Part shown: in pieces, positions 18,552 through 39,171 of the stretch
Numbering within the stretch: the first letter of the stretch is position 1
How the letters are laid out: each line of letters opens with the position of its first letter
Assembly (NCBI GenBank): GCA_944324495.1
Contig: CALUWN010000016.1
Location: 1 to 39,327 of the forward strand
Origin: an uncultured Mucispirillum sp.
Lineage (GTDB): Bacteria > Chrysiogenota > Deferribacteres > Deferribacterales > Mucispirillaceae
Direction of reading: 5' to 3'
Length of the DNA stretch: 39,327 nt
Notes under the pieces: model-generated
Databases searched by the model: none
What the model saw: only the letters and a program-made list of their open reading frames with translations
Told to the model about the DNA's origin: nothing
Position numbers and translations under genes: made by a program

Positions 18552-19946
18552 TTATCTCATTTGCGATGAATGGATATAGCCAACAACTGCATCATCTATT
18601 TTATATGTATTTTTAGGAAAATATACCACCTTATACCAGTTGCCTATTTTTAAGTTTTTCATATTTAATAATTTATTTATTTGGTTATAATATTTTTCAG
18701 CATTATTTTTTAACTGTGATGCTATATTTATAGAATAGTAAGTGCCCTCTAATTCTTTAAAATTATAAAGCCCTTTATAATAATATACTATATAATCTTC
18801 AGAATAAGAAGAATTGAGATTTATTTTTTTTATAATTTTACCATTTGGGCTGTTCCTTATATTCACATAACCATCACGGCTGAAAAGTTCATATGTATCT
18901 ATATTATGTTGTTTAACTTCACAATCACTATCTTGATTATCGCCATACTCGTTTCTATTATATTTTACACTGCTTATAATTTTATTTAATTTTATTTCAT
19001 CTACATACATAACAAGTATGTTTTCCTCTGGGTTTCTGCTTAACATAATTTTATCATCAGGATTTATTGTTATTTCTGCATCAAAATTAACTTCACCTAA
19101 TATACCAGAGGATAATATATTTGGGTATATATTACTGCCATATGTAAATTTTTTTGGGCGTATCGATATACCATTTATTTCAACACTTTTATCATATGAA
19201 GAAAATTCTGTTTTAGGTAAATAATTATTTAAATATTCACTGTCACTGATATACACATTATTATTAATATTTGATAATGTGAAAATACCTTTTAATTTTA
19301 ATGGACTTTTTAATTTATATTCATATGTAACATGAGCATCTTCATGATGATAATATATACCACTATCATTCTTACTAAATTCTTCAATTTCTCCTGCACT
19401 ATATACATTATCATTATAATCAGCATTATTTACTATTTCTTTCAGCTTCATATACTTTAGTATAGATTGTGCAAGTTCAGGGTAATATTGTGTTAATATA
19501 TTATAGTAATACATCTTAGTATATTTATATATAACACCATCTTTTATATATACTTTATAGTACTTACGTATAAACTCCAATGTTTGCATATAATCTAGCC
19601 CACTGTTAGATACTTCATAAAGCATATCTGTAACATCATTTGCTGCTTGGTTTGCATATACTTTTATATCTTTATCTATTTTTAAGCTGATTTTTTTCAT
19701 ATCTTCATTACTTATTTTGGTTCTTAGAATATCTAATTTATCATAATCTGCGGGACTTATCACATAATCACTACTTGTTATATACTCCATAAATATTTTT
19801 ATATTTTCCTGACTCATAGAATTTTTAAAATCTTCATTATTATATTCAATTAATTTTTCTGCAATTTTTTTAGCATTATTTGATGCTGTATATCCATTAG
19901 TATTTGCAAATAGTATTATAAATAATATAATCAGTATTTTTTTCAT
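18552..19946 (-). CDS. Secreted protein with C-terminal SH3-like domain (D2)
   Basis: A 464-residue protein with a signal peptide (about residues 1-21), a helical first half, a beta-rich middle and a bacterial SH3-like domain at the C-terminus. Hallmarks of the last are DGYVNIRNSPNGKIIKKI near residue 355 and GYIHSSQMR at the very end. Such domains commonly bind cell-wall or surface ligands. The middle shares KGIFTLSN, YLPKTEFSSYDKS and IRPKKFTY with the upstream gene at 19969-21273, so the two are tandem paralogues. Function unknown; periplasmic or surface location is inferred from the signal peptide. Confidence 0.78.
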   Translation of the reverse strand: MKKILIILFIILFANTNGYTASNNAKKIAEKLIEYNNEDFKNSMSQENIKIFMEYITSSDYVISPADYDKLDILRTKISNEDMKKISLKIDKDIKVYANQAANDVTDMLYEVSNSGLDYMQTLEFIRKYYKVYIKDGVIYKYTKMYYYNILTQYYPELAQSILKYMKLKEIVNNADYNDNVYSAGEIEEFSKNDSGIYYHHEDAHVTYEYKLKSPLKLKGIFTLSNINNNVYISDSEYLNNYLPKTEFSSYDKSVEINGISIRPKKFTYGSNIYPNILSSGILGEVNFDAEITINPDDKIMLSRNPEENILVMYVDEIKLNKIISSVKYNRNEYGDNQDSDCEVKQHNIDTYELFSRDGYVNIRNSPNGKIIKKINLNSSYSEDYIVYYYKGLYNFKELEGTYYSINIASQLKNNAEKYYNQINKLLNMKNLKIGNWYKVVYFPKNTYKIDDAVVGYIHSSQMR

Positions 19947-19968
19947 AATATTGTTACCCCGCAGTTAC

Positions 19969-21273
19969 TCACTGCTCTATTATTTTTATATGTGATGAAT
20001 GGATATAACCATAACCATTATTATAAGGAATTATATACCATGGACCTATTTTAAATTCTCTTATATTTAACAGTTTTTTTATTTTGCTGTAATAGTCTCT
20101 AAACTTATTATAGTAATCTTCATTTTCTGTGTTATTAAAAAAATATTTTTCTTCATTTGATTCAAAATTCTTTAAACCATTATAATGATCAACACTAGTA
20201 TAATGACCAACTTCAATCTGACCAATCACTTTACCATCAGGAGCATTTCTTATATTGACAGAACCATTATCACTAATTAACCTATATCTATCTAATACTA
20301 CATTTAGTTCTGGAACAAAATCTCTATATTCAAAACTATTTATTATTTTATTTATTTTTATTTCATCTACACTTATTAATGCCACTCTATTATTATCATT
20401 GTGTAGATATATCATACTATCCATTCCTAATGTGATTTCAGCATCAAAATAAACTTCGCCAAACTTTCCTTGAGATATTATATTAGGGTATATATTATTA
20501 TTGTATGTAAATTTCTTTGGTCTAATAGATAAATTTTTTAATTCAAAACTTTTATCATATGATGTAAACTCTGTTTTAGGTAAATATCTATTTATATAAT
20601 ACTCTCTATCACATATCTTGTAAGAAGAAGTATTGTTTACATTTGATAATGTAAAAATACCCTTTACTTTTACTGGTTGTTTTCCTTTATATTTATAAAA
20701 TAATTCATTATCCAAGTCATGTATATCAGATGTCTTAGAAGCATGGAATTCCATTAATGATGAAAACATAACATCATATTTTTTATCATTTTCTGGGGCA
20801 GCAGGAGCGAAACTTACATATCTTCTCATAGCAGATACAAGCTCTGGATAGTTTTTTATTAAAATATTATCATAATAATCTATTGCTGATACAGTAATAT
20901 AATTCATTTTTATTATATCTGGTATAAAATATTTATCTATTGTGTTAAAAGTATATATTGAATTAACACCATGGCTTCTAAAACTATCCATATATAATTT
21001 ATATAAAGATTTTATTCTATTTACTGCATATCTTTCTATATCATTCTTATATTTAAGGCTTAATGCCCTCATTTGTTTTTCATTTAATGATTTATAGATA
21101 TTATTCATATTACCAAAACTTCCAAAATCGGTAAGATTATAATCTTTATCCATAAGGTTATTATATATATCCATATAGTTTATGATGCTTTGGTTATCAT
21201 TTTCTGCTCTTGCCTGCATATAGGTATTTGAAAAAAATATTATAAATACTATCAATAAATATTTTTTAACCAT
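19969..21273 (-). CDS. Secreted protein with C-terminal SH3-like domain (D1)
   Basis: A 434-residue paralogue of the next gene, with a signal peptide ending near QARA. Shared blocks include VKGIFTLSN, YLPKTEFTSYDKS, LSIRPKKFTY and FDAEITL. The C-terminal SH3-like domain is marked by NGSVNIRNAPDGKVIGQI and GYGYIHSSHIK. A strong AGGAGGG ribosome binding site precedes the ATG. It lies 22 bp upstream of D2 and 25 bp downstream of C3, so it is part of the same run. Divergence from D2 is large enough to suggest an old duplication. Confidence 0.78.
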   Translation of the reverse strand: MVKKYLLIVFIIFFSNTYMQARAENDNQSIINYMDIYNNLMDKDYNLTDFGSFGNMNNIYKSLNEKQMRALSLKYKNDIERYAVNRIKSLYKLYMDSFRSHGVNSIYTFNTIDKYFIPDIIKMNYITVSAIDYYDNILIKNYPELVSAMRRYVSFAPAAPENDKKYDVMFSSLMEFHASKTSDIHDLDNELFYKYKGKQPVKVKGIFTLSNVNNTSSYKICDREYYINRYLPKTEFTSYDKSFELKNLSIRPKKFTYNNNIYPNIISQGKFGEVYFDAEITLGMDSMIYLHNDNNRVALISVDEIKINKIINSFEYRDFVPELNVVLDRYRLISDNGSVNIRNAPDGKVIGQIEVGHYTSVDHYNGLKNFESNEEKYFFNNTENEDYYNKFRDYYSKIKKLLNIREFKIGPWYIIPYNNGYGYIHSSHIKIIEQ

Positions 21274-21298
21274 ATGCCCTCCTACTTAAAAAAAATTA

Positions 21299-22366
21299 TT
21301 AATGTATGGCAACTGGTACTACTATATTTTCATCATCCTGTATATGCTTATGAATAATATATTCAATGGTTTTCTCTGCCTTTACTTCTTCATCTTCACC
21401 ATATTCCACATCTTTAAATATAATTTTAACTGTATTATCATCAATTGTTTCTATATCCTTAAAATATTTGCTGTTGCTGCCTGTAATATTATCATCTTCA
21501 TAAAAATCAGTATTATAAAGTGAAGTTATAAATACACCTTCATAATAATAATCTTCATACTCTGTATGGCTTACAAGTTTATTATCAATATACTTATCTT
21601 CTATTACTTTGTTATCTGGAACAATTTGTACCATATTGGTACTACCATCTGTTTCATTATATATTTCTAAAGCTGTTGCTCCGGCTAAATAGTCTATATC
21701 TTGCAGACTTAATATGTTTGCCTTTTTATCATAATTTAAAAGCATTTTATCATACTGAATAATAGTATTTGTTTCATCCTGATACATTATTTCATTTTTA
21801 GTATATAATTTATTTACTTCCTGCCCTTTACTAAAGACTTTAATAAACTGCTCCTGATTATCCCCACGCCTTATATTATCAACTAATGTGTAATTATCTT
21901 GTGATGTAGTTATTACATAATTCATATTATAATAGGTATTATCTTTATACATCAACCAGTTATATTTTGTTTGCTCTATAATATCACCGTTCATATCATA
22001 TATTTTCATCTCTACTGGTAGTAAAATAGATTTACCATCTGGTATTACTGCCTGCATTTGCTTATTTTCTGCCTGATTATCTTGGGCTGTATTTGGCTGA
22101 GCTTTTGGTGCTGTATCTTCATCTGTGCTTTCAGCTGTATTTAATGCCTGCTCCTGATTTTGAGGCTGTATTTCTTCATTTTTAACTACTTCTTCGCTTA
22201 CACTTTGATTAGTAGTTTCACTTTGAACTGTGTCTTTATTTTCAAAATTTTTAATTAAAAGAAATATAATTACACTAACTGCTGCTATTAAAATTACTAC
22301 TAATATTCCTGCAATCAGTAATGCTCCTTTGCTTGATTTACTTGGAACTTTTTGATTATTTTCCAT
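21299..22366 (-). CDS. Single-pass membrane protein, family C (C3)
   Basis: A 355-residue protein with a short cytoplasmic start (KVPSKSSKGAL), one transmembrane helix (about residues 15-40), and a low-complexity linker rich in Gln, Glu, Asn and Thr (about 45-105). A repetitive beta-type domain follows. Pieces such as DKYIDNKLVSHTEYEDYYYEG recall the short strand repeats of YwqK/MORN-type proteins, a weak resemblance. The first 60 residues are nearly the same as in C1. The ending EYIIHKHIQDDENIVVPV is shared in pattern with C1 and C2. Confidence 0.75.
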   Translation of the reverse strand: MENNQKVPSKSSKGALLIAGILVVILIAAVSVIIFLLIKNFENKDTVQSETTNQSVSEEVVKNEEIQPQNQEQALNTAESTDEDTAPKAQPNTAQDNQAENKQMQAVIPDGKSILLPVEMKIYDMNGDIIEQTKYNWLMYKDNTYYNMNYVITTSQDNYTLVDNIRRGDNQEQFIKVFSKGQEVNKLYTKNEIMYQDETNTIIQYDKMLLNYDKKANILSLQDIDYLAGATALEIYNETDGSTNMVQIVPDNKVIEDKYIDNKLVSHTEYEDYYYEGVFITSLYNTDFYEDDNITGSNSKYFKDIETIDDNTVKIIFKDVEYGEDEEVKAEKTIEYIIHKHIQDDENIVVPVAIH

Positions 22367-22397
22367 ACCTGTTTATCTCCCATATACAACTTTATCA

Positions 22398-23150
22398 CTA
22401 TTCAATAGGTGTTACTTTTCCGTCCTTTTCACGTATATGTTTTTTCATAATATACTCTGTAACAGTTTCATCACCATATTCCTTATTTTCCTGCACTATG
22501 GTAATAAATACTGTATTCTCATCAATCAACGCCTTGCTTTCCACATACATTTCTGTTTCCATGCTTGTTTCAGCATTAATATGATACACCATATTAGTTA
22601 AGTATGTCACAAGGGTGTTTTGAAAATAATATTCCTGCTGAGTGCTTTCTTCAATTTTTATGTTATTTGCATATTTTTCTGATTTTATTACATTATCTGG
22701 GTATATAAAATATTTCATTAAAACATTTTCATTTTTATATAATATTTCAAGGTGTGTAATATTATCTTTTACTTCTTCTTTTTGCAGTATTATTTCTTTT
22801 TCACAATCATTTCCATCACAAGATATAATCTTTTCCTTTAAAAGAATATTAGTATCTTTATACATTTCAGATACTATAGGCGCGCTTGATTCTACACACG
22901 TATTATCTTCAAGATAAGCATTTGTTGTACTTGTAACAACCTGCCCCTTTCTATCTGTTTCTATATCATATGTTTCTTCTGTATTTTCAGGGTCTACCAT
23001 TCTACATATATTCTTAAAATCATCTTTGCTTATATACCGCTCCCATTTGTAACCAGACATAGCTGTATAATCATCATCCATATACTGCTTCATTACAGTA
23101 ACAAGCCATATAATATTTTCTTCATTATCATTTTTTACAAGCTCACCCAT
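22398..23150 (-). CDS. Family C paralogue lacking the membrane anchor (C2)
   Basis: About 250 residues, related to C1 and C3 in the C-terminal domain (YYFQNTLVTYLTN and EYIMKKHIREKDGKVTPIE) but without their transmembrane helix and linker. Nothing resembling the missing part lies in the 40-bp gap upstream, so it was probably cut at the 5' end or formed by an internal duplication. I favour the ATG at 23150, eight bases after AAGG; 23159 is the alternative. Without a signal it should stay in the cytoplasm, unlike its relatives. Confidence 0.68.
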   Translation of the reverse strand: MGELVKNDNEENIIWLVTVMKQYMDDDYTAMSGYKWERYISKDDFKNICRMVDPENTEETYDIETDRKGQVVTSTTNAYLEDNTCVESSAPIVSEMYKDTNILLKEKIISCDGNDCEKEIILQKEEVKDNITHLEILYKNENVLMKYFIYPDNVIKSEKYANNIKIEESTQQEYYFQNTLVTYLTNMVYHINAETSMETEMYVESKALIDENTVFITIVQENKEYGDETVTEYIMKKHIREKDGKVTPIE

Positions 23151-23189
23151 TTCATTCACCTTACATTAAACCATATTATTAATATATTA

Positions 23190-24221
23190 TTATTCTTCCT
23201 CATCAATAGGTGTAACAGTACCATCTTCTTCAAGTACATATTTTTTTAAGATATATTCTGATTTTAAAGCTATACTTGTGTTTCCATATGCACTAATTTC
23301 ACTTTTCAAGGAAATTTTTACGTTATTTTCATCTTCTTCTACATTTGTTACTTTAAGTTCAGATAATGAATCAACTTCGCCGTTTGTGTAATGTTCTGAC
23401 TTAAAAAGAGTTGTAATTAATACACCATTATAATAATAATTTTCATATAAAGTTTTCTTAAAAAGTTCATTATTGACATATAAATCTTCTGATACTGTAC
23501 CATCTGGGTTTATTTGTATCTTTTTTAAAATATTTTCTTTCTTATTATTAATTTCAAGTAAAGTCTTATCACCTTGTTTTTTTTCTATTATTTCCACATC
23601 TTCTACTTCTGATACTGCCTGCTCTCCTTGTTTAATAATTGTTGCCAGTTTTAATACAACAGTAGTATTATCATAAAATTCTAGCTTATTAACCATTTCG
23701 CCTTCTTGCATGAAATTGGTTTTTATACTAACTTCGCCTATATTATTTTTTCGTTCAATAATCATCTCTGATTGTGTATTAAGTGCACCTTTTTCTTTTA
23801 CTAATACTTTATTATCAGTTGGGCTTTTATAATAATCCCATTCATATAAAGATTCTTTTACAGTATTTCCATTTGCATTATATGCTTTTTCAATACTTGG
23901 CAAAAATATATATTTTACAGATGAATTAAGCTCCTGTTTATCTGAGCTAGTAGCTGCATTTTCTTCTTTTTTATCAATATTTACTTCATCATCCATGCTG
24001 TCATTTTGCACTTTTTTATTTTGGTTTATTTCATACTTTTGGACTACTTCTTCACTTACGCTTTGATTAGTAGTTTCACTTTGAACCATATCTTTATTGT
24101 CAAAATTTTTAATTAAAAGAAATATAATCGCACTAACTGCTACTATTAAAACAGCTATTAAGGATACTGCAATTAATAATGCACCTTTACTTGATGATGT
24201 TTTAGTTGGTTTTGTAATCAT
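23190..24221 (-). CDS. Single-pass membrane protein, family C (C1)
   Basis: A 343-residue paralogue of C3: TSSSKGALLIAVS, one transmembrane helix, then VQSETTNQSVSEEVV, a charged linker and a beta-repeat domain ending EYILKKYVLEEDGTVTPID. Its first 150 bp are about 90% identical at DNA level to the start of C3, while the rest has diverged strongly. This points to gene conversion or selection on the anchor part. It starts 81 bp after B1 in the same direction. Confidence 0.75.
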   Translation of the reverse strand: MITKPTKTSSSKGALLIAVSLIAVLIVAVSAIIFLLIKNFDNKDMVQSETTNQSVSEEVVQKYEINQNKKVQNDSMDDEVNIDKKEENAATSSDKQELNSSVKYIFLPSIEKAYNANGNTVKESLYEWDYYKSPTDNKVLVKEKGALNTQSEMIIERKNNIGEVSIKTNFMQEGEMVNKLEFYDNTTVVLKLATIIKQGEQAVSEVEDVEIIEKKQGDKTLLEINNKKENILKKIQINPDGTVSEDLYVNNELFKKTLYENYYYNGVLITTLFKSEHYTNGEVDSLSELKVTNVEEDENNVKISLKSEISAYGNTSIALKSEYILKKYVLEEDGTVTPIDEEE

Positions 24222-24302
24222 TTAACTCTCCCTGTCTTATTATTATATATATTTATTATTAATTACGCTGATTTTTCTACATAAACCATTTCTTTATGCC
24301 TT

Positions 24303-26528
24303 TTATAAATATTCAAACATGGTAGAATATTCTATAAATGTATCCATAATACATTGAAAACTCCTTTCGCATTTTAAATATTTATTATTCATATCTTTAT
24401 AAAGTATCTCAATATATTTTTTTATATTTTTAGGATAATAATATTTTTCTGCCTTTTCTAATTTCTTTTTATATAAAAGCTCTGCATATGCTTTTGCTGT
24501 CATAAGTGGGCGGAAAAAACATATTAAATCATCATTTTCATTTTTTACATTAGTACAGTCCATACCAGCTAATTTCATTAAATCATCGCTGTAATTATTA
24601 TCTGGTGAAATATTATTTACATTCTCTTTAATATTACTGTAATTATATGGTGGGTATATTTGACCATATAGTTTATTTTTATCATCTATCTGTACTAAAT
24701 AAACATTATTATCATTCCTTACATAGCCTATATTTATAGTATTATTTACTTTATATATAATAGTATCTACAAACTCTTCACTAGAAACTATATCATTTAT
24801 TTTTTTAGCTTCATTTTCATTTAATATATTTAAGTTTTTATTATCCACTAAAAACAATGCTTCTTTTTTTATACCATGCTGGTTATAAAAATAAGCCACT
24901 GCTACTATTATATTAAAATTATTTGATTTTATATTATAAAAATAAAGCTCATTATATATTAACTTATGGTTGATGTATTTTTGCAGATATTTAATGTAAT
25001 CTATTACTGATTTTTCATAATTTTTTACTGCAAATTTTGAAATATTAAATAACTTCTTCATTTTATCAGGAGATATTTTCTCACCTCTTATATCATATTC
25101 TCTTTCAATATCACCTAATATATCTGCAAAAATATTTCTTGAAAACTCTTGGGAATATATCACATTATCTTTATAAGAAAAAGTGTCCATTGATGAAACA
25201 CGGTAAAGTGATAAATTTTCAATAACCTTACTTTTGCTGTTTGTTCTAATAAGCGGCTCTATACTGTAATGATTATCATAACCTGTATTAAATAATTTTG
25301 GTGAACGCACTTCTATTTTTAATATTTTATTTTCATATTTTGTAGTGTTTATAATATAAGTTGTATTATCATAAGGGAATATATACAGGTTGCCAAAATA
25401 TACATTATCAGTACAGTGTAATGGAGTATATTCTAAACTGCTGCTTTTTTTATTTTCACCATACAGCTCTTTATAAAACCTAGGGTATAAGTAATAATAA
25501 TCTTCACTTACATATGATGAATCAAATACGGAAAGTATAGAATATTCATTAAACCTGCTAACCTGTACTGTATTATAGATACCGTCATTGAAAAAATTAA
25601 AATAACCATTTAAAAATGCCGCATATTCTACTAAATATTTTGCTTGTAATTTTCTAAATGCTTCTTCCACATTGTATGTTAAATTAGGCAGCTCATACAT
25701 AAGTGAAGATATGGCGTTACATTTATTCTCATTAAAATCACATATTCCATAGGGCATAAGGTATGACAATATAGTCTGCTGATTAACACCAGCATTTATT
25801 AATTTCTGCATCTCTTTCTGCATATTTTTGAGATTATAAAGCCCGCCGCCTGCATACTCTGCCAATATTAAGAAAAATTTATCACTATCAGAAAGCTCCA
25901 TATTCTTTTCTGATACTTTTATTATGGTATCTGTTGCTTTTTTCAAGGCTCTATTACGCCATGCATAATAATTTTTATCAGCAATTGCTTCCATTAAATC
26001 AATAAAATTATATTTTTTATATAAATTTCCTGTTATAAAATCATCAGAACAGGAAAAAGGGTCATCACTGTTTTCATCATAAAAATAACCCATTTTATTT
26101 ATATCTAATATGGCATTTGGCTTAGACTGTTTTTCCACTTCCCCTGCTGCATAGGCAATAATCAATTTTGCATCATCTACAGTAACACTATCTGCCTGTA
26201 AAAATTCATAATATTCTCCAGCATAGCCTGTGTATGTAAGATATTTTCCGTAATTATTACCACGTATATATTCTTCATTATTTTCTATCTCTATATAGTC
26301 TTTTTCATCTGGTATTTTTATTTCTTTTGTTACTTCATTTCCATAACTGTCTGTATAAGTGATTGTGCCTTTTTCAACTACAATTCCACTTCTACCTGTT
26401 AACTCTTTATCAAGCATAAGATTATTAATATAACCTTGAGCTCCTGCTGAAACTGTACTATTATTTTCTTTTGCATAAGCAATTAAATTTATAAATATAA
26501 TTAAAATAAAAAATATATATTTTTGCAT
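24303..26528 (-). CDS. Large secreted protein, family B (B1)
   Basis: A 741-residue exported protein of unknown function. The signal peptide ends near LIAYA. Blocks shared with B2 and B3 include CSDDFITGNLY, HCTDNVYFGNLYIFPY, FSYKDNVIYS and a C-terminal DC..LIC..R..LMTAKAYAELLYKKK pattern with a final Cys pair. The last pattern is faintly like LprI/DUF1311 domains. I start at the ATG at 26528, which follows GGTGG; a start at 26549 would overlap the A1 stop (TAATG) and add a non-signal extension. It follows the A1 lipoprotein, as B2 follows A2. Confidence 0.76.
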   Translation of the reverse strand: MQKYIFFILIIFINLIAYAKENNSTVSAGAQGYINNLMLDKELTGRSGIVVEKGTITYTDSYGNEVTKEIKIPDEKDYIEIENNEEYIRGNNYGKYLTYTGYAGEYYEFLQADSVTVDDAKLIIAYAAGEVEKQSKPNAILDINKMGYFYDENSDDPFSCSDDFITGNLYKKYNFIDLMEAIADKNYYAWRNRALKKATDTIIKVSEKNMELSDSDKFFLILAEYAGGGLYNLKNMQKEMQKLINAGVNQQTILSYLMPYGICDFNENKCNAISSLMYELPNLTYNVEEAFRKLQAKYLVEYAAFLNGYFNFFNDGIYNTVQVSRFNEYSILSVFDSSYVSEDYYYLYPRFYKELYGENKKSSSLEYTPLHCTDNVYFGNLYIFPYDNTTYIINTTKYENKILKIEVRSPKLFNTGYDNHYSIEPLIRTNSKSKVIENLSLYRVSSMDTFSYKDNVIYSQEFSRNIFADILGDIEREYDIRGEKISPDKMKKLFNISKFAVKNYEKSVIDYIKYLQKYINHKLIYNELYFYNIKSNNFNIIVAVAYFYNQHGIKKEALFLVDNKNLNILNENEAKKINDIVSSEEFVDTIIYKVNNTINIGYVRNDNNVYLVQIDDKNKLYGQIYPPYNYSNIKENVNNISPDNNYSDDLMKLAGMDCTNVKNENDDLICFFRPLMTAKAYAELLYKKKLEKAEKYYYPKNIKKYIEILYKDMNNKYLKCERSFQCIMDTFIEYSTMFEYL

Positions 26529-26548
26529 ATTTACCACCAAATGTATCA

Positions 26549-28015
26549 TTAAATATCATTAGCGTTTATAAAACAGTCTTTTTTATCTTTACATATAACT
26601 ATATCATGCATATATTTTGCCTTTATAAGAAGCGACCTGTTTTCGCATATATATTTCAACCTTTCATTATTATCACCATTAAGGCAGTCTATAACACCAC
26701 GAAAACGAAATAAACTTTCTTTATCAGGCTGGTTATCTTTTAGTTTCCCTTTCCATACCAGCTGTAATTTTCCATTTTCATATTTTATAAAATCTTTTTC
26801 ATTAAAGCTAAACCCATAATCATTATATATATAAATCGCTTTTTCGTTTTGTGTGTAGTCATAATTACCATAGCTTGTATCATAAAAAGCAGGGTTTCTA
26901 AATTCAACTTTTTCTACTCTATTTTCTTTCATTTCAACAATATAAACAGCCCCATTAAATGCAAAAATATAAAGTGGGTTGTCATACAGTTCATCTAAAT
27001 TATTACCAAAATCATAAGAAATCATTCCTTTTGGCTTAACAGAAGGTACAAGTTTACCTATATAATTTAAAGCGTCTCTGGCATTTTCATATTCTGTAAA
27101 AAATGGGTTAACTGCATATTTATTTTCTGCACGCTTTACAACTGCAACTGGTATATAATCATCATCATTTAAAAAATTATAAACCCCAGCAGAAGAAAAC
27201 ATTATATCACTAAAGCCTTCTTCCACTCCTTTGTTTAAAATATCTATAATGTCTATATTTTCATTTTCTGCTATATAATTGAAAAGTGTATTTAATGCTT
27301 TATTTTTCTTTTTATTAAAAAATCTTATTTTTTTACCGCCAAGTTCTTCCCATTGTTTTATATGCTCTTTGATTTTACTTAGATTATAAAGCTCATCCTG
27401 AGCTAGATAAGAAAGCGCTATCATCATATGTGCATCTGCTTTTATTTTATCCTTCTCATTTTTTAAATCATTATTAAGGGCATATAAAAGCATATTTCGT
27501 GCTTTTAGTAATGCTAGATTTTTTGCTCTGTATGTTTCTGAACCTTTTTGAAAATCTCCATAACAGCTTACTTTATAGCCATCTTTAAATTCGTTTTCTA
27601 AATATATTTTTGGATAACAGTACTGCTCAAATTTCACACTTGAGGATATATTATCTTTATTCTCGTAAAAGTATGTAATAATTTTATATGCACTTGTTAA
27701 GTCTGTGCCAACATCCAAAAAATCTTCTGCTTGCTGTTGAATTTTAGAAGTTTTATAATCACCAAGGTACTTGTCATATTCTTTTGGAAAATATTTTTCA
27801 TAATCATCTTCTTTTGACACATCTATTAAAAAATCATAATCTCTTTCGTTTTTATAAAATGATGTGCCCGCATTTATATAATCAAGCTTCGCAAATGATT
27901 CTTCAAAAATATTTATATTTTTTGGGGCATTAATTTCTTCAATATTATATTCATTATCCTGCATACAAGCAGAAAATAATATAATAAAACTAATTACAAT
28001 ACCATATTTTTTCAT
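26549..28015 (-). CDS. Lipoprotein, family A (A1)
   Basis: A 488-residue predicted lipoprotein (signal peptide with lipobox FSAC at about residues 14-17). It aligns with A2 throughout: INAPKN against IEAPKD, RKAHLGLLKARNMLKYA-type helices, ISYLAQDELY, YIVEMK and a closing DCLNG..YICENRSLL..AKY pattern with two further Cys. The middle DNPLYIFAFNGAVYIVEMK block corresponds to the YIFPY..TYIINT block of family B, so A and B are distant relatives. A GGGAG site precedes the ATG. No known family; outer-membrane location is inferred. Confidence 0.76.
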   Translation of the reverse strand: MKKYGIVISFIILFSACMQDNEYNIEEINAPKNINIFEESFAKLDYINAGTSFYKNERDYDFLIDVSKEDDYEKYFPKEYDKYLGDYKTSKIQQQAEDFLDVGTDLTSAYKIITYFYENKDNISSSVKFEQYCYPKIYLENEFKDGYKVSCYGDFQKGSETYRAKNLALLKARNMLLYALNNDLKNEKDKIKADAHMMIALSYLAQDELYNLSKIKEHIKQWEELGGKKIRFFNKKKNKALNTLFNYIAENENIDIIDILNKGVEEGFSDIMFSSAGVYNFLNDDDYIPVAVVKRAENKYAVNPFFTEYENARDALNYIGKLVPSVKPKGMISYDFGNNLDELYDNPLYIFAFNGAVYIVEMKENRVEKVEFRNPAFYDTSYGNYDYTQNEKAIYIYNDYGFSFNEKDFIKYENGKLQLVWKGKLKDNQPDKESLFRFRGVIDCLNGDNNERLKYICENRSLLIKAKYMHDIVICKDKKDCFINANDI

Positions 28016-28049
28016 TTAATCTCCCTGTCTTTTTATTATTATAAACTTA

Positions 28050-29066
28050 TTATTTATAGCATGGAAAATACATTTCAAAATCCTCCCTTTCCCCCGGGTC
28101 GTATTCCAATATCTTATCCCACACTGAAGCGTGCTCCATACAGTAGTATATAAAAGGTTTTTTCCAATTAGCCCTTATTCTATTTGTGGCAAACTCAATC
28201 ATCTTAATACGCTCTGCCTTAAAATACCTAGTTTTGCCGTCTATTCCCTTTATAAAATCCCCTTTTGTTAAAATTGAAGGGCTTTTTCGCTGCCTTATTA
28301 TATTCATAAGTTCAGCAGGGCATCTAAATGTAGATATACTTATATATTCTACCATATTTTCATCTATTTGGCTTGTTAGCTCATCAATTAGTTCACCATA
28401 AGGAAAAGTAAAATTTTCCATCATTATTAATGGGTCAAAATGAAAGCCCACTTTATAACCATAACTTGAAACTTCTTTTGCAGCCTTTAACCTTTTTTTA
28501 AGGCTTGCTGTAAATGGTTCTTCCTGCTCTATAATACTAGCAGGGTTTAAGCTCCATGAAACCATAACATTTTTTGGGTTTAGGTTAAGCAGGTTATCTA
28601 CTACATCTGATTTTGTTTTAAACTCAAATAATATATTATCCTGCTTATTTACGAAGGGCACTATTATTTTTGAAAGGGGGATAGTTTTATCCATTGCTAA
28701 ACTGTCACTTAATTCCCCACTGCCTATTCGCCTTTTCGTATCTTTTATTGAAAATGCAATATCTTCAAGCACCTTATCAGTATTTCCTGCAACGCGTATA
28801 TGCTTATGGGGAAGATAAAGCTGTAAGATACAATATGCACAGTCAAAAGGGCAGCCCTGCATAATATCTACCACGTGATAATTGCAGCACCTGTATATAT
28901 TTGTAGCAGGGCATCTGTGTACAAAATTATCTTTATGGTTAGATATTACCACATTACTTTTTTTATCTTCTACTTCTGCCCCGTCATCTATTACTTCTAT
29001 ATTATTATCCTTTGCCACCATTTGAGTAAGTGGCAAATCTTGGGCTGATTTTTCTACATATATCAT
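28050..29066 (-). CDS. SplB-like radical SAM protein (spore photoproduct lyase family)
   Basis: A 338-residue radical SAM protein. The cluster motif CPFDCAYC (Cys 72, 76, 79) binds the 4Fe-4S cluster. CPATNIYRCCNY, GFHFDPLI, EYISISTFRCP and the final YDPGEREDFEMYF are typical of the family. True spore photoproduct lyases have a catalytic Cys in a CTSD context after the cluster. Here the equivalent segment is GSGELSDSLAMD without Cys, so genuine thymine-dimer repair is doubtful. It sits between the B2 and A1 genes with short gaps, unlike its envelope-type neighbours. Confidence 0.85.
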   Translation of the reverse strand: MIYVEKSAQDLPLTQMVAKDNNIEVIDDGAEVEDKKSNVVISNHKDNFVHRCPATNIYRCCNYHVVDIMQGCPFDCAYCILQLYLPHKHIRVAGNTDKVLEDIAFSIKDTKRRIGSGELSDSLAMDKTIPLSKIIVPFVNKQDNILFEFKTKSDVVDNLLNLNPKNVMVSWSLNPASIIEQEEPFTASLKKRLKAAKEVSSYGYKVGFHFDPLIMMENFTFPYGELIDELTSQIDENMVEYISISTFRCPAELMNIIRQRKSPSILTKGDFIKGIDGKTRYFKAERIKMIEFATNRIRANWKKPFIYYCMEHASVWDKILEYDPGEREDFEMYFPCYK

Positions 29067-29081
29067 CTATTACCCAGCTAA

Positions 29082-31232
29082 TTAATATTTAAAAATATTT
29101 TCATAACTTAGTATGGAATTTAAACATGTATCATAATCTGCCCCTTCTCCACATTTTTCAGTATAGGCAGTATTAAAAGATTCATATATTTCCTGCAGTT
29201 TTATTTTTACACTTTCTGGATAGCTGTTTTTTTCTACCTTTTCCATTTTTTTACTATAAAGCCCTTCAATATATGCTTTAGATGTTAAAAACAAACGGTC
29301 TGTACATATATATGGCTGAACTTCATTTTCAACATTTTGGCAGTCAATTTTTGCTTTTTCTTCCAAACTGGTTGTAAAATCTTTATATTCTGCCATTTTG
29401 TTTATTTTTTCACTTTCACTTTCATAGTAATATATAGGGAAAGAGCCAGAGCCTGCCTTATTATCTACAATATTTACAACAAATATATTATTATCCCTGT
29501 GAATAAAACCTATAAAAATGCTGTTTTCTGTTTTATGAATTAAAGTTTTATAAAACTTATTGTTATTTAGTGCATTATCTATATCAAGCGCTATTTTTTC
29601 ATCTAAAATTTCTAAATTTTTATTAAGTATAAAAATGCCTTCAGTTTTAATACCATTGTTATTATAAAAATAAGTAGAAGCTAAAATAACAGGGTTTTTA
29701 GCATCAACTGTTAAATCATAAAAATATAGCTCATTTTCTATTAACTGCTGGCTTGAATATTTTTGCAGATAAGCCATATATTTATTTATTTCTTCCTGCA
29801 TATCACCTTTACTAAATTTATCTATACCTAAAACTGCCTTAACTTCTTTAGGACTTATTTTTTGCCCTCTGCGTTCCTTTAATTTATCCACATCACCAAG
29901 TGGTGATTGAGGCTGCTTTTTATATTCTTTGCTGTATATTATATTATCTTTATATGAAAATGTATTCATAGTAGATACTTCATGCAGTGCAAGATTTATA
30001 TTATATCTTAAAAGCACTTCTATATCATAATTTTTAGAATATTCAGTATTAAAAAATTTAGGGCTTCTCACCTCTATTTTTACGATTTTATTTTCAATTT
30101 CTGTTGTATTTATAATATATGTTACATTATTATAAGGGAAAATATATACATTACCATAATATACATTATTAGTGCAGTGCTGTGGTATATATGTTTTACT
30201 ATCCCCCGTATTTTCATTACCATAAACCATTTTATAATAATTTGGATAAGGGTTATATGTATAATAACCTATCTGGCTTAGTTCTAAAATATTTAATACT
30301 GACTGTTCATTTATTTTACTAACCTGCACAATCTCATAAAAATTATCATTAAATATATTAAAATACCCATTTAAAAAAGCAGCGTAATTTATAAGCCCGT
30401 TATCGCGTATTATATTAAAAGCTTCTGCTGGGTTATCTTCTTTAAATTCTATAGATTTACTTAATAATGATGCAACACCATAACATTTATTTCTATTATT
30501 TACACAAAGTCCATAAGTTTCTAAATATGATACCATGTTATCAACTGTAGCACCACTATCTATAACTTTTTGCATTTTTTCCTGAATATATGGCAGGTTA
30601 TTAAAACCATCACTTAAATATTCTGCTAATGCAAGAAAAAAGCTGTCCTCACTGCTTTCTTCTTCCTTATTTTCTATTGATTTATTTATTATATATTGTG
30701 CTTTTTTTAAAGCCCTGTTTTTCCAAGGAAATGTCCTTGTATTGGCTATATTATTAGTATATTCTGTCCATTGTTCTCTATACAGCTCTCCATTTATAAA
30801 TTTATCACTGCAGGAAAGCTGTGTATCTTTTTCTTCATTATATTCATAACCTAAATCAAATACACTAACAAATCTATCAGATACAGACATTTTTTCTATT
30901 TTGTATATTTCATTACCTATCAATATTTTTGCAAAAAACACAGGAACATACTCTGCTTCTAAAAAGTTTGCATACTCTTCCATTTTAACAGAGTTTGCCT
31001 TATATCTCCCAAAATTAAATTCTTTTAAATATTTTTCATAATCAAGCACATTTATCATATCTTCATTATTATGTACGATATTGTTTTTTATTTCATTACC
31101 ATGAGTATCTGTTAATGTTACTTTATTTCCTTCAACAACTATTTCTCCAATTTTTATATCTTCATCACTATTTTGTGCAAATGCTTGTAATGCAAAGAAA
31201 ACAACTGCTGATATATATAATAGCCTACTCAT
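29082..31232 (-). CDS. Large secreted protein, family B (B2)
   Basis: A 716-residue exported protein with a signal peptide ending LQAFA. It is the closest relative of B1: VTLTDTHGNEI, CSDKFINGELY, AAFLNGYFNIFND, NVYYGNVYIFPY, IVKIEVRSPKFFNT and FSYKDNIIYS. The C-terminus repeats the DC..ICTDRLFLTSKAYIEGLYSKK pattern plus two Cys. The start is the ATG at 31232, eight bases after GAGG; it overlaps the A2 stop (ATGAGTAG), so translation of A2 and B2 is coupled. No enzymatic motif was found; function unknown. Confidence 0.77.
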   Translation of the reverse strand: MSRLLYISAVVFFALQAFAQNSDEDIKIGEIVVEGNKVTLTDTHGNEIKNNIVHNNEDMINVLDYEKYLKEFNFGRYKANSVKMEEYANFLEAEYVPVFFAKILIGNEIYKIEKMSVSDRFVSVFDLGYEYNEEKDTQLSCSDKFINGELYREQWTEYTNNIANTRTFPWKNRALKKAQYIINKSIENKEEESSEDSFFLALAEYLSDGFNNLPYIQEKMQKVIDSGATVDNMVSYLETYGLCVNNRNKCYGVASLLSKSIEFKEDNPAEAFNIIRDNGLINYAAFLNGYFNIFNDNFYEIVQVSKINEQSVLNILELSQIGYYTYNPYPNYYKMVYGNENTGDSKTYIPQHCTNNVYYGNVYIFPYNNVTYIINTTEIENKIVKIEVRSPKFFNTEYSKNYDIEVLLRYNINLALHEVSTMNTFSYKDNIIYSKEYKKQPQSPLGDVDKLKERRGQKISPKEVKAVLGIDKFSKGDMQEEINKYMAYLQKYSSQQLIENELYFYDLTVDAKNPVILASTYFYNNNGIKTEGIFILNKNLEILDEKIALDIDNALNNNKFYKTLIHKTENSIFIGFIHRDNNIFVVNIVDNKAGSGSFPIYYYESESEKINKMAEYKDFTTSLEEKAKIDCQNVENEVQPYICTDRLFLTSKAYIEGLYSKKMEKVEKNSYPESVKIKLQEIYESFNTAYTEKCGEGADYDTCLNSILSYENIFKY

Positions 31233-32721
31233 TATAATCACCTCTTTTAATCATATCTTCTACTGTCATAAAGCAGTTTTCTTTATTTCTGCATTTATAA
31301 TTTTCATGCTCATATTTTGCTTGTATAAGCCTTCCTCTATTAGAGCAGAAATAAATTAACCTTACATCATTACCATGCAGACAGTCCATCATATTTCGTA
31401 GTTTAAAAAGTTTTGCTTTATCTGGCTGCTGGTCTTTTATATTACCATTCCATACAAACTCACCCTTACCATTTTCATAACTAATATAGTCTTTTTGGAG
31501 CATATCAAATCCATATTCATTTACTATAAACTCTTTATAATCATTATCTGAATAACCACCTGTATTATAGCTTGTATCAAAATAAGCAGGGTTATAAAAC
31601 TCCACTTTTAATGGTTTTTCATCTTTCATTTCCACAATATAAACAGCACCATTTAGTGGCAAAATATATACGGGGTTATCATATAATTTATCATAATTAT
31701 TTCTTACATTATATACTGATGAATCTATTTCTTTTTTAGGCTCTACCAATAATGCATAAGAAGCAAGCACATGTTCTACCCTGTGAAATTTAGTAAAAAA
31801 TGGATTAACAGCATATCTTTTTTCATCACGTTTTACTATGCTTACAGGTAAAAAGAAATCATCATTTAAGTAATTATATATGCCGCCTAATGATAATGCT
31901 TGGTTTATAAAGCCTTTATCAATACCGTCTTTTAAAAGCTCTATAACGCCTGTATTTTCATTATATGCTACATATTTTAATAATTCATTTAATTCTTTAT
32001 TTTTTTCAGATGAAAAAATCTCAACCTTATCTCCGCCTAATTCTTTCCAAAGGGCAGCGTATTTTTTCACTTCCAAGATTTGATACAGTTCATCTTGGGC
32101 AAGGTAAGAAATGGCAATATATAAATGAGCATCTGCACGTACTTTATCACTTTCTTCTTTTAACTGATTTTCTATAGCATATTTTAACATATTTCTTGCT
32201 TTTAAAAGCCCTAGGTGTGCCTTTCTATATATTTCTGCACCCTTTTGAAATTCACCAACACACTGAAGTTTTCCCTCAATAAAATCATCAATTTTATTAA
32301 AATTATAATCAGGAAAACAGTATTGGTCAAATTTTGCCAGCTCTAATAATTTACTTTTACTATCAAACATATATGCAATAAATTTATATGCACTGGAAAT
32401 GGAAGTTCCGTTATCCATAAAATTATTTATATAATTTAACATTTCATCGTCGTATTGGATTATATTAGTTACATCAAGATAGTTTTTATAAAAATATTTT
32501 TCATAATCTGCTTCTTTTGAAATATCTAATAAAAATGCAAGCTCTTTATCATAATCATAAATTGAAAGCCCAGCATTTTCAATATCTAACTTATCAGTTA
32601 GATTATCAAACAGTACATAATCTTTTGGTGCTTCTATTTTTTCAACGTTAAATTCATCTTTTCCTTTACAGCCTGTAAAGGCAATTAATGTGGCTAAAAT
32701 TATACAGTATTTTTTCATCAT
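31225..32721 (-). CDS. Lipoprotein, family A (A2)
   Basis: A 498-residue predicted lipoprotein, paralogue of A1, with lipobox FTGC and mature sequence starting CKGKDEF. Middle helices (YRKAHLGLLKARNML and AISYLAQDELY) suggest TPR/SEL1-like repeats, and the C-terminus repeats DC..YFCSNRGRL..AKY plus CRNKENC. Start ATG at 32721 follows a G5 site at good distance; the extended frame to 32748 is not supported. It heads the long minus-strand run that ends at 17641. Its upstream DNA is duplicated in front of B3. Confidence 0.77.
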   Translation of the reverse strand: MMKKYCIILATLIAFTGCKGKDEFNVEKIEAPKDYVLFDNLTDKLDIENAGLSIYDYDKELAFLLDISKEADYEKYFYKNYLDVTNIIQYDDEMLNYINNFMDNGTSISSAYKFIAYMFDSKSKLLELAKFDQYCFPDYNFNKIDDFIEGKLQCVGEFQKGAEIYRKAHLGLLKARNMLKYAIENQLKEESDKVRADAHLYIAISYLAQDELYQILEVKKYAALWKELGGDKVEIFSSEKNKELNELLKYVAYNENTGVIELLKDGIDKGFINQALSLGGIYNYLNDDFFLPVSIVKRDEKRYAVNPFFTKFHRVEHVLASYALLVEPKKEIDSSVYNVRNNYDKLYDNPVYILPLNGAVYIVEMKDEKPLKVEFYNPAYFDTSYNTGGYSDNDYKEFIVNEYGFDMLQKDYISYENGKGEFVWNGNIKDQQPDKAKLFKLRNMMDCLHGNDVRLIYFCSNRGRLIQAKYEHENYKCRNKENCFMTVEDMIKRGDYNE

Positions 32722-33515: not shown

Positions 33516-35450
33516 TTATTTTAAAAATAATTTTTGATATTTAAAAAATAAATCACTTATACATTCTTTATTGGAGCATGATAAAACTTCCTTATTCATA
33601 TTATCATAAGAAGTAATATTACCCTGTTTTTCTTTGTATAATACTTCTATATATGCTTTATGGCTTAATAATTCTCTTGATGAACATATAAGCTGTAATG
33701 CTTTATTTGCAGAAGTTTTATTACAGTCAATATTAGCTGCAACATGCAAATTAAACAGAGTTTTTTCTTTATCAACATTATTAATTTCCTGCTTATTTTT
33801 CACATTATATGCTGGAAAAGTATTAAATTCTGCCTTTCTACCATCTTTTATATTTACTATAAGCACTTGACCGTCTTGCCTTAAATATATCAGTTGTGGA
33901 TTATTGTCTTTATATGTTATTTTAACATTATAATTCCATAAATAGCTGTCAGTGAAATCTGATACAGCGTTTGCTAAATCTTCATTTAATATGTTTAATT
34001 TTTTATCTACTATAAAGTAATGAGTAATATTTTTTGTTTTTTTATCAATAATACAGGCAACATATACTGGGTCTTTTTTACCTATATCATAAAAAAGTAA
34101 ATCATAATCATAAATTGTTATTAAAGATTTTGAATAAAAGCTTAAAAATTCCATATATTCTTTAACAGCTCTTGGGCTATCTGTATTGTTCATTATGGCT
34201 TTTTCATAATTTCTGTCTTTTACATAATCTTTCATCTGTGTATAAGTTAATGGTTTACTGTAATCATACATATTAGCTAATGTATCTACATCCCCAGCAG
34301 GCGACTGCGGCTCTTTGTCATATTTGACTTCATAAATAATGTTATCTTTATATGAAAATTTACCCATTTGGGAAACACCATGGAGTGCTTTTGCCTTTTT
34401 ATCATCTTTAAATATTTCTGCAATATTATAATTTTTACCATAATTTACATTAAAATATGCAGGGTTTTTTATAGATATTGTTTTTACATTATTTTCCACT
34501 TCTGATGTATTTACTAAATAATATTTTTTATTAAACGGCAATACATAAAGGTTGCCCTGATAAACATAACCTGTGCAGTGCTCTGGCTCATATTTCTTAG
34601 GGTCACCGCTGTTATTATCACCAAAGAGCTTATAAAAAAGGTTTGTATATAGATTCTCATTATTATCGCTTAATTTTTCTTCATCTATTATTAATATAGA
34701 GTGAGTATTATTTTTCACTATTGCAAATTTGTGATAAAATCCGTCATTATAAATGTCTACATAACCAGAAGTCATTATAATATCATCTATATATCCCTTC
34801 TCTACTGCATAGTTATAAAAATCTACAACATTATCAAATTTCATTTTAGTAATATCTGCAATTATTTCTGCTATTACTTCTACGTCTTCTGTTAAATCTT
34901 CTACTGCTGTATCACCATTTACTGATAAAAATTCATTAAAATAATAAGATATTTTATCATAATTATAAAACATATCTTTTAAGAAATACATATAGCTTAT
35001 GAAAAATAATGTTTCACCTGCTTCATCTGTATTTTCCTTAATATAGTTTTCAAATATTTTAATTGATTTATCAAGCTGGCTGTCTAATTTTAAATATTTA
35101 TCATTATTTTTTAAAAATAATTTGCTTTTTATATTTCCATTAATAAATTTATCAGAACAGGCAAGCTTGTTTATATTATTTTTTGCATATTTAAAGCCTA
35201 TATCTGCAAGCTCTTCATCACTGTATATATTTTTAATTGGGTATTGTTTTATTGAGTAAACTCTGGTATCAAATGCAAATTTAACAAAATCTGATTTCCA
35301 AAAATTTACATCATCAATATTTTTAATTTCAAGATAATTAATCGTATCTACAAGTTGTTCAGATTTTTTTAATATAGTATTAATATCATGCGCAAATACT
35401 GTTTTACCTATTAAAACCAGCAAAAATGTAATCAATAATTTTTTCATCAT
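33516..35450 (-). CDS. Secreted protein, family B (B3)
   Basis: A 644-residue exported protein, the third and most divergent B member. The signal peptide ends TVFA. Shared blocks are LACSDKFINGNI, HCTGYVYQGNLYVLPF, MGKFSYKDNIIY, EPQSPAGDVDTL and the C-terminal DC..LICSSRELLSHKAYIEVLY with CSNKEC. It lacks the VTLTD-type N-terminal block of B1 and B2. The start is the ATG at 35450 after a G5 site; the frame continues to 35522 without support. It has no A partner, but its upstream DNA is the same as that of A2, as if an A gene had been deleted between them. Function unknown. Confidence 0.76.
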   Translation of the reverse strand: MMKKLLITFLLVLIGKTVFAHDINTILKKSEQLVDTINYLEIKNIDDVNFWKSDFVKFAFDTRVYSIKQYPIKNIYSDEELADIGFKYAKNNINKLACSDKFINGNIKSKLFLKNNDKYLKLDSQLDKSIKIFENYIKENTDEAGETLFFISYMYFLKDMFYNYDKISYYFNEFLSVNGDTAVEDLTEDVEVIAEIIADITKMKFDNVVDFYNYAVEKGYIDDIIMTSGYVDIYNDGFYHKFAIVKNNTHSILIIDEEKLSDNNENLYTNLFYKLFGDNNSGDPKKYEPEHCTGYVYQGNLYVLPFNKKYYLVNTSEVENNVKTISIKNPAYFNVNYGKNYNIAEIFKDDKKAKALHGVSQMGKFSYKDNIIYEVKYDKEPQSPAGDVDTLANMYDYSKPLTYTQMKDYVKDRNYEKAIMNNTDSPRAVKEYMEFLSFYSKSLITIYDYDLLFYDIGKKDPVYVACIIDKKTKNITHYFIVDKKLNILNEDLANAVSDFTDSYLWNYNVKITYKDNNPQLIYLRQDGQVLIVNIKDGRKAEFNTFPAYNVKNKQEINNVDKEKTLFNLHVAANIDCNKTSANKALQLICSSRELLSHKAYIEVLYKEKQGNITSYDNMNKEVLSCSNKECISDLFFKYQKLFLK

Positions 35451-35593
35451 TTTAAACCCCCATAGGATACTACCATATTTTATAAGTAAAAACAAGCAAC
35501 TAACTGATATATTTATAAGCATACAATTTTTAGGAAAGGGATTAATTTATAATGTGGAATGCAATGAAGAATGTGACAGTTTGCCACTTTTAA
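35445..35593. repeat. Segmental duplication, copy 2
   Basis: Counterpart of 32716-32860. It joins the upstream region of B3 to the first codons of the membrane gene. Compared with copy 1 it has a short deletion removing the TTGACA and TATACT boxes. Confidence 0.85.
35552..35593 (+). pseudogene. Remnant of a second membrane gene copy
   Basis: This encodes MWNAMKNV followed by TVCHF and a stop. The first eight codons match the start of the 32849 gene with one difference (Ile to Met at position 5). A deletion then joins them directly to the end of the terminator hairpin, so only 13 codons remain. Confidence 0.85.
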
Positions 35594-37474: not shown

Positions 37475-37604
37475 ATATATTGCTAGAGAGGTTATACTTA
37501 TTTAAGGGGTGTTGAGTGAGCAGGTCAATATATCAGCACTTAATCTTTTAGGGTATAACACAAATATAGATGTAATTTAAGCCACCTTTAAAGGTGGCTT
37601 TTTT
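37475..37604 (+). ncRNA. Candidate small RNA or tiny-protein transcript
   Basis: The transcript from the consensus promoter would be about 130 nt and end at a perfect terminator. Nested stems are visible: GTTATAC (37491-37497) with GTATAAC (37553-37559), TTAA with TTAA, and GTGTTGA (37509-37515) with TCAGCAC (37533-37539), closing a 17-base loop. An open frame also lies here: from TTG at 37512 to TAA at 37576 it gives SEQVNISALNLLGYN and more, about 22 residues. An AAGGGG site (37504-37509) is two bases from that TTG but six bases from a GTG at 37516 that gives an 11-residue peptide. It does not show the SRP RNA core; 6S RNA cannot be excluded. Confidence 0.55.
37580..37604 (+). terminator. 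Strong rho-independent terminator
   Basis: AGCCACCTTTAAAGGTGGCT forms an uninterrupted palindrome, followed by six T. It ends the small transcript. An A-rich start on the left side means it may also act on the converging SIR2 gene, whose stop codon overlaps the T run. Confidence 0.88.
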
Positions 37605-39171
37605 AAAATCTGTTTACAAGATAATCATATATTCTTATAAGTCTTCTTAAATCAGAATTATTTACACCTATTTCATAATATATTTCTTTTATATATGAGT
37701 GTAGCTGCGTTAAGTTGATTTCATCTTCATTTAAAAAGCATATTTTGCGAAATGCTTTTTCCATGCCTTCAATTTTAATTATTTCATCAATTGTTTTGTA
37801 TTGTAACTTTTTTCTATAAATAATTTTTCCTTTTCTAATGGAGTTATTTAAAAAATCATCTAGACTATGTTTCTTTTCATAGTCAGCTTTTATGGTGTCA
37901 GTTATATATTCTTTACAATCTTTGATGTATTTATACATTGGTAAACCACTTGTATTTTGTTTTAAAAGAACTGGCAGTACCTCCTTTGTTATAAATTCTG
38001 GTGTAAATCTTTTATTATTAAATATTACATCTTCATACAATAAATCAGCTGTTACACTTTTTCCATAATTACTTTTATGTACACCAATAGAGAGTAATAA
38101 CTGACTATCTTCTGGCAACTTATCTAATTCATCAAAACCCATAGCATATATTTTACTAGCAGGATTAGAAATAACTGCAAGTTCATATATCTCTTTCCTT
38201 AACTGTCTTAAAATATTTGGTTTTATTGTGATTGCTGTACTTACAATTCTTTTATATACTTCAAGAAATCTATTTGTTGTAATTTTAGTCATTGGAATGG
38301 TATTTTTTTCATCTACATTAGTTTCATCATTAAAGCTTTGCTGAAATGCTTTAATTGTTTCTTCCTCATTAGAATATTCAATAAATATAAGCCTATCCTC
38401 TATTGTTTGTAATTGCTCTTTATTTAAACACTGTGTAATTGATTTGAGTATAGACTGTATATTGCTATCATTTAGACTATAACCTATAAAAATAACTGGA
38501 TTTTCAAGAAAAATTGTCAATAATTTTGCTGTTAAATAAGCATATTTTTTATTAAATATTTCATAATCTTCATTATTAATTATGATACTATTAGGCTTAC
38601 TAGCAGAACCATGTATCTTATATAACTCGCCCATATTATAAATATCTGCAAATAGTAATTCTTCTTGGCTTGAATAGATATTAAATTTATTAAATATCTC
38701 ATCAAGAATTAAATCATAATTTGTAGTAATAACACCTGCTACATGTGTAGAAATATTATTTTTAAAATAAAGAAATTCTTCATTCTCACAAGATAAAATA
38801 TCTATATCTAAAAAATAATTTGATAATGCAATTTTAAAGGGTGAAATACCTGATTGGATTACTTTTTTATTTTCCAAGCGAAATTTTTTATATTTATCAT
38901 CAGAAAATACAGCTTCATTGTAATCTTTTTCTAAAAGTGACGCAATCTGAGGATATAATATGTTTGGTATAGAAGAGTCTATTTTATTTTTATAAAAATC
39001 AAACTTAAAATCATCGCCTGAAAATTCTTCTGCAAATTTTCTTAATAATCCTTCCCAATTCAATAAATTAAAATATCTTTTTGAAAAACCTGAACCAATG
39101 AATAAAAAAGGATGTCTATTACTTTTTTTTATTATATGAGTAACGTATTCTGCAATATTTTTTGTATCCAT
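37603..39171 (-). CDS. SIR2-like domain protein, predicted anti-phage NADase
   Basis: A 522-residue protein with an N-terminal SIR2 domain (about residues 1-260) and an all-helical C-terminal region. NAD-site features are FIGSGFSKR (24-32), VITTNYDLILDE (147-158), KIHGS with the catalytic-type His at 187, and FIGYSLND (228-235). These are the hallmarks of SIR2-type defence proteins, which deplete NAD+ during phage infection, rather than of protein deacetylases. No zinc-binding Cys cluster is present. No partner gene is visible; it may be a stand-alone system or the rest may lie beyond the repeat at the window edge. Function is inferred from family. Confidence 0.82.
   Translation of the reverse strand: MDTKNIAEYVTHIIKKSNRHPFLFIGSGFSKRYFNLLNWEGLLRKFAEEFSGDDFKFDFYKNKIDSSIPNILYPQIASLLEKDYNEAVFSDDKYKKFRLENKKVIQSGISPFKIALSNYFLDIDILSCENEEFLYFKNNISTHVAGVITTNYDLILDEIFNKFNIYSSQEELLFADIYNMGELYKIHGSASKPNSIIINNEDYEIFNKKYAYLTAKLLTIFLENPVIFIGYSLNDSNIQSILKSITQCLNKEQLQTIEDRLIFIEYSNEEETIKAFQQSFNDETNVDEKNTIPMTKITTNRFLEVYKRIVSTAITIKPNILRQLRKEIYELAVISNPASKIYAMGFDELDKLPEDSQLLLSIGVHKSNYGKSVTADLLYEDVIFNNKRFTPEFITKEVLPVLLKQNTSGLPMYKYIKDCKEYITDTIKADYEKKHSLDDFLNNSIRKGKIIYRKKLQYKTIDEIIKIEGMEKAFRKICFLNEDEINLTQLHSYIKEIYYEIGVNNSDLRRLIRIYDYLVNRF

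Follow-up and report, generated by a model that had tools for sequence, protein, structure and literature searches.

Why should a bacterium encode, twice within one locus, a lipoprotein followed at once by a larger secreted relative of that same lipoprotein? The question is raised by the window analyzed here, a stretch of 39,327 nucleotides (positions 1 to 39,327 of contig CALUWN010000016.1 in assembly GCA_944324495.1; contig C16 of genome G000 below) from an uncultured member of the genus Mucispirillum, to which the homologous named records also belong. The window holds two modules, A2-B2 and A1-B1, each formed by a lipoprotein gene (A) and a gene for a larger secreted protein (B), with all four open reading frames on the minus strand. 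Comparison across the genus indicates that A and B are likely partners, and they may form a two-subunit module of the cell envelope with tails of the LprI type, a reading for which we consider the chances to be evenly balanced.

A2 (31225..32721) is a lipoprotein of 498 amino acids (aa) with the lipobox FTGC and Cys18, a helical N-terminal region, a middle beta block, and a short tail with four cysteines. Its secreted paralogue B2 (29082..31232; 716 aa) has a signal peptide, judged by eye as in B generally, and no lipobox; it consists of a helical region, the middle beta block, an extra beta region, and an LprI-like tail. The other module comprises the lipoprotein A1 (26549..28015; 488 aa, lipobox FSAC) and the secreted protein B1 (24303..26528; 741 aa). 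As described in the earlier note on this DNA, A2 and B2 overlap, by the 8 nt ATGAGTAG (31225-31232, minus strand), and A1 and B1 lie close together, with exactly 20 nt between the stop of A1 and the start codon of B1, ATG at 26528; an alternative in-frame start of B1 (ATG at 26549) overlaps with the stop codon of A1. A Shine-Dalgarno-like sequence, AGAGGTGAT, is located inside A2 on the same strand, directly upstream of the B2 ATG, a placement that would lead one to expect coupled translation of A2 and B2.

Conserved pairing and a natural fusion

Genes for A are present in eight of ten Mucispirillum genomes, and the two genomes without A have completeness values of 86% and 57%. All nine A genes (eight genomes, both copies in the window counted) are followed by a B-type gene in the same orientation; that of G008 is cut by the contig end. 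The reading frames overlap by one base in G001, G006, and G009 and by 8 nt in copy 2 of G000; a few bases separate them in G003, G004, and G008, and 20 nt in copy 1 of G000. The neighborhood otherwise contains ftsY, a 260-aa gene, an SPL-type gene, and further genes for secreted proteins in varying order. A lack of conserved A-B pairing in other genomes, which the earlier note had named, together with the lack of a predicted interface, as the outcome that would speak against its proposal, is the opposite of what is observed.

In the single-contig genome G007, A and B constitute one open frame of 1199 codons, in which a short stretch replaces the signal peptide of B. A sequencing frameshift is hard to invoke in this case, because B, once fused, can do without a separate signal for export. 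The fusion is good evidence for joint action of A and B on one side of the membrane, and it is the best evidence for their partnership.

Kinship, cysteines, and the C-terminal tail

The similarity of A and B is centered on the middle beta block (A2 residues ~280-385, at 31567..31884; B2 residues 289-401, at 30030..30368; both on the minus strand), which was delimited by BLASTP and hhalign. BLASTP aligns A and B across 133 aa of this block with an E-value of 5e-9, and hhalign matches their profiles with a probability of 99.0 (E 5.2e-18, 270 columns), or of 99.1 (E 3.8e-19, 388 columns) after realignment without a paralogue from contig 17. Both tails contain the pattern DC-x11-(I/F)C and further cysteines, followed by R..LIxAKY in A and R..L...KAY in B. 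The shared block, the cysteine pattern, and the common ancestry proposed earlier are all borne out, and judged by these alignments A and B are paralogues derived from one ancestor.

The lipobox cysteine, Cys18 behind a hydrophobic signal, is invariant in the nine A sequences, two of which are matched by the LPAM_1 profile (best E 0.017). The lipobox speaks for anchoring of A in the membrane, without telling which face of the membrane it occupies; the cell surface put forward in the earlier note is one possible location. In the structure model of B2 the extra beta region extends over residues ~430-612 and is missing from A. The models, each computed from an eight-row alignment, have a predicted local distance difference test (pLDDT) score of 62.8 and a predicted template modeling (pTM) score of 0.74 for A2, and a pLDDT of 66.5 and a pTM of 0.54 for B2; the middle beta block is of low confidence in both. 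The fold search with A2 gave a best Z of 6.8, and TPR and 14-3-3 chains were among its best rows for the N-terminal region; with B2, Foldseek returned nothing at E <= 0.001, and the best Z of a second fold search was 5.2. Since all these Z scores are within the chance range stated for the tool, no fold is claimed. Profile searches of PDB sequences with A and B gave nothing credible (best E 1.9), and likewise nothing with an LprI piece.

The cysteines of the mature proteins come in even sets. All four in the A tail are invariant in the nine sequences, and both members of another pair, C135/C154, are missing from G003 and G004. In B two cysteines are invariant (141 and 353), four lie in the tail, and a pair (243 and 250) is mostly lost together. 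Sets that are mostly retained or lost jointly fit intrachain bridges, like those reported for ScwA of Salmonella (PMC7933661); a bridge between A and B, set aside in view of the even sets, is left without support. Among candidate oxidase partners, DsbB and VKOR had no match in the genome, and one DsbA-like protein was found.

The tail of B2 (29085..29348, minus strand), with the arrangement DC-x11-IC-x14-LY ... C ... C, resembles LprI/DUF1311, and the shortened four-cysteine tail of A2 (31273..31386, minus strand) is kin to it. The respective Pfam model, PF07007, matched none of the ten members of the B alignment and nine members of the A alignment at E-values up to 10, nor any of seven proteins of two further families. 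These families, E (~450 aa, seven loci) and F (~650 aa, three proteins), turned up with the A and B profiles. By itself, the want of PF07007 matches would have meant dropping the LprI idea, a conclusion reversed by an external LprI profile and by the intermediate position of E and F. The external profile was built from ten plasmid-borne proteobacterial LprI proteins, to which a second version (14 sequences) adds four LprI proteins of the genus; the contig-17 paralogue was excluded from both the B-tail and the full-length B profiles. Across 426 open reading frames, the external profile placed the four genus LprI proteins first, and the next ten matches were all C-terminal tails of the family. 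The E-values are 7e-11 to 3e-9 for the three F tails, 1.5e-8 to 3e-4 for the seven E tails, and 0.0067 to 0.76 for B-types, the best reversed sequence being at 0.15. In profile comparison, the E/F tails match the external LprI profile at 97.5% (E 6.5e-12), and the B tail matches the 14-sequence LprI profile at 83.7% with a score of 33.8, where 60 column shuffles reach at most 14.8. The A tail is tied to the B tail at 87.7%, and A is tied to E at 98.6% over its full length including the tail (E 7.7e-16, 419 columns); B matches E at 98.2% and F at 97.4%, and A matches F at only 10.7%.

Taken together, these profiles indicate that proteins of the family carry at their C-terminal end an LprI-type domain, which is complete in B and E, lacks the first two cysteines in F, and is shortened in A. 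The comparison of the tail with LprI proposed in the earlier note has therefore upheld the likeness with significant scores for E and F, and weakly, yet in the right place, for B, while the A tail is linked to LprI only via its relatives. The E genes (L111-L116 and L037) have a conserved place, and in several genomes they are convergent with an apparent TonB receptor and ABC uptake set (names assigned by eye). Two F genes (L117 and L118) are in tandem in G004.

The B profile had no match among 40 genomes of the phylum outside the genus, where the A profile gave only short matches of signal-peptide length, in G014 and G020, which were taken as chance. At E 0.01, neither A2 nor B2 had a relative among plasmid records. 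A contig scan found six loci, all from Mucispirillum; as it used strict peptide patterns, it lends weak support to absence from wider taxa. No paper naming both 'Mucispirillum' and 'LprI' was found in the literature searched.

LprI domains are also encoded elsewhere in G000. On contig 28 (1-5717; L001/L120), the C-terminus of a VgrG protein (PF22178, Gp5_trimer_C, and weak DUF2345) is followed by a 395-aa secreted LprI-domain protein and then by a 1316-codon frame that starts with a phage-lysozyme match (E 0.0033, weak and under the Pfam cut-off); by its domain content this set looks like a type VI secretion system (T6SS) effector with LprI-type immunity. On contig 1, near 44300, L047 encodes a 410-aa protein with a full four-cysteine LprI domain in its middle, under the Pfam cut-off.

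Duplication and divergence of the modules

Between the two modules lies an SPL-type radical-SAM gene (28050..29066, minus strand; PF20903, E 6.2e-23), and B1 is followed by a remnant of the start of such a gene, eight codons (MVYVEKSA) and then a stop (24263..24289, minus strand). The SPL start and the remnant share a 17-mer that occurs on the minus strand at only two places in the window, 29060 and 24283. The position of the remnant suggests that A1-B1 and A2-B2 arose when A-B-SPL was duplicated in tandem, which is the most likely history given these sequences, the second SPL gene being almost gone. The copies are old: A2 and A1 are 47% identical, and B2 and B1 41-43% (43% over 33-719).

Relative to G006, the A2 and B2 proteins are 74% and 41% identical, respectively, and ftsY and SPL 95%. 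The corresponding nucleotide identities are 79% for A2, 58% for B2, and 92% for SPL, rising to 87-88% in the last codons of A and to 97% in the first of SPL. B has thus either been swapped whole while its flanks stayed conserved, or it diverges very fast. In two pairs of close species, the ratio of nonsynonymous to synonymous substitutions (dN/dS) is 0.06 and 0.07 for SPL, 0.17 and 0.29 for A, and 0.31 and 0.56 for the B-type gene; for A and B these values point to relaxed or variable selection, and positive selection is not proven. New in this analysis are the finding that B is far more variable than its neighbors and the SPL remnant of the tandem duplication after A1-B1.

Other genes of the window were noted in passing. 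The gene at 23190 diverges much as B does (63%). It belongs to a group of tandem paralogues at 18552-24221, namely 18552/19969 (~37-40% alike) and 21299/22398/23190 (~25-33%), which are also present, rearranged, in G001 and G006. A SIR2_2-domain protein beside ftsY (37603-39171) is 97% identical in G006, unlike the strongly differing A and B nearby.

Possible roles and known systems

If A and B are subunits of one module, A would probably anchor B in the membrane, in a heteromer arising from coupled translation in which each chain has its own disulfides. The helical and beta regions would form the body, and the LprI-type tail would bind a partner. The known partners of LprI proteins are peptidoglycan-active (PMC7933661, PMC8867033, PMC12135965), and we suggest, tentatively and with some doubt, that the tails would bind a peptidoglycan-cleaving enzyme, a muramidase or one of another kind, which may belong to the cell itself, as proposed for ScwA, or be foreign, such as host lysozyme or a rival's effector; the target of the module is a guess. 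Judged by its high divergence, B may be the part that faces a changing partner. A wider proposal, which we regard as quite unlikely, is that of a genus-wide LprI-tailed family with a heteromeric lipid-anchored form, in which A is conserved and B is exchanged or diversified in place, so as to act as a changeable inhibitor of, or receptor for, muramidases (host lysozyme or rivals' effectors).

Several observations weigh against a two-subunit module with LprI-type tails. B-type genes exist without an adjoining A, namely C (33516..35456, minus strand), recognized by sequence comparison as the third B-type paralogue of the window, and the gene for the 530-aa protein on contig 17; relatives of C, 65-79% identical, directly follow an A in G003, G004, and G008. 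The identities of A and B correlate (r 0.87, Mantel p 1e-4, eight pairs, G008 being left out as its B-type gene runs off the contig), but this value leans on two near-identical species pairs and on shared phylogeny. B2 itself breaks the pattern of co-evolution: A2 shares 73-74% identity with A of G001 and G006, while the identity of B2 with B of these two genomes is only 40%, not above its value for B of G007 and G009 (43%). The tail of A, at half the length, yields 0.3% and a score of 10.7 when compared with LprI directly, less than the highest score among 60 shuffles; the B proteins of G001 and G006 (E 5.4 and 5.6 against the external LprI profile) fall among unrelated reading frames. Neither Pfam nor NCBIfam yielded a credible family for A or B, neither a toxin nor a muramidase gene was recognized beside A-B, and the LprI-domain protein ScwA gave no protection from lysozyme (PMC7933661).

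One alternative is that A and B are adjacent merely by local tandem duplication and divergence, each being an envelope protein in its own right with no binding to the other. Their paralogy and the mark of tandem duplication left by the SPL remnant agree with this, as do the tandem F genes of G004, the existence of unpaired B-types, and the conservation of A2 while B2 was replaced or diverged. Nevertheless, we consider it rather unlikely: the order A then B has been kept tight and on one strand in nine of nine cases although the remaining neighborhood is rearranged, and the natural fusion of G007 dispenses with the signal peptide of B. An adhesin or mucus-binding pair on the surface, with the LprI-like tail as a mere stabilizing cap, would suit a lipoprotein with a secreted partner in a mucus bacterium (PMC5285517) and the variability of B; Pfam and NCBIfam, however, revealed no adhesin domain in A or B, and fold searches gave no match above chance level, which makes this role very doubtful.

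Two other explanations take the tail as a guide to function. The module could be an orphan defense against muramidases, providing either LprI-type immunity to T6SS effectors of rivals or inhibition of host lysozyme in the mucus layer. LprI-domain proteins have been proposed as T6SS immunity proteins (PMC8867033, PMC12135965), G000 has the arrangement of VgrG, LprI, and lysozyme-like sequences, the dN/dS of B-types and A exceeds that of SPL in the two species pairs, and the locus is duplicated. Yet no effector is recognized beside A-B, ftsY and SPL mark the locus as syntenic throughout the genus, dN/dS stays below 1, and A and B greatly exceed in size the LprI immunity protein of 146 aa (PMC8867033); we hold such a defense to be somewhat improbable. 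The synteny would suit an endogenous regulator of the cell wall by analogy with Salmonella ScwA, a protein of the periplasm that controls the amounts of peptidoglycan hydrolases. ScwA has two disulfides, and its layout, with the LprI domain at the C-terminal end and conserved cysteines, is the same (PMC7933661). A housekeeping role is hard to reconcile with how strongly B diverges, and we judge this explanation to be unlikely.

Whatever its target, the A-B module has a bearing on LprI proteins in general. LprI-type domains are annotated as lysozyme inhibitors on thin evidence, a function that at least one of them did not show when tested (PMC7933661). Here, in a genus of the mouse gut, the domain occurs in what is probably a two-subunit form, which diverges fast and is fused by nature in one genome. 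A-B is therefore a compact system for finding what the LprI domain binds, and could show whether a mucus bacterium aims this domain at host lysozyme, at rivals, or at its own cell-wall enzymes.

Comparison with known systems places A-B near several LprI proteins and apart from each of them. LprI of Mycobacterium tuberculosis likewise carries its LprI domain in a lipoprotein, for which inhibition of lysozyme is claimed, but it has an MliC domain (both as told in PMC7933661), and Pfam scans find none in A or B. The LprI immunity protein encoded beside the LysM effector of S. Dublin has its domain behind a signal peptide (PMC8867033), and the arrangement at L001/L120 of G000 is similar; A-B differs as a two-gene syntenic module without a recognized effector neighbor. 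ScwA (SL1344_0490), to which A-B is likened by description only, is periplasmic and shares the C-terminal position of the LprI domain and the two disulfides; it regulates MltD without conferring lysozyme resistance, and it is a single protein of 275 aa, for which the available part of PMC7933661 describes no lipoprotein partner or duplicated pair. Finally, the A-B family shares with LprI/DUF1311 (PF07007) the DC-x11-IC pattern, the LY-containing helix, and the subsequent C...C, and is set apart by the location of this domain behind ~400-600 residues of genus-specific protein.

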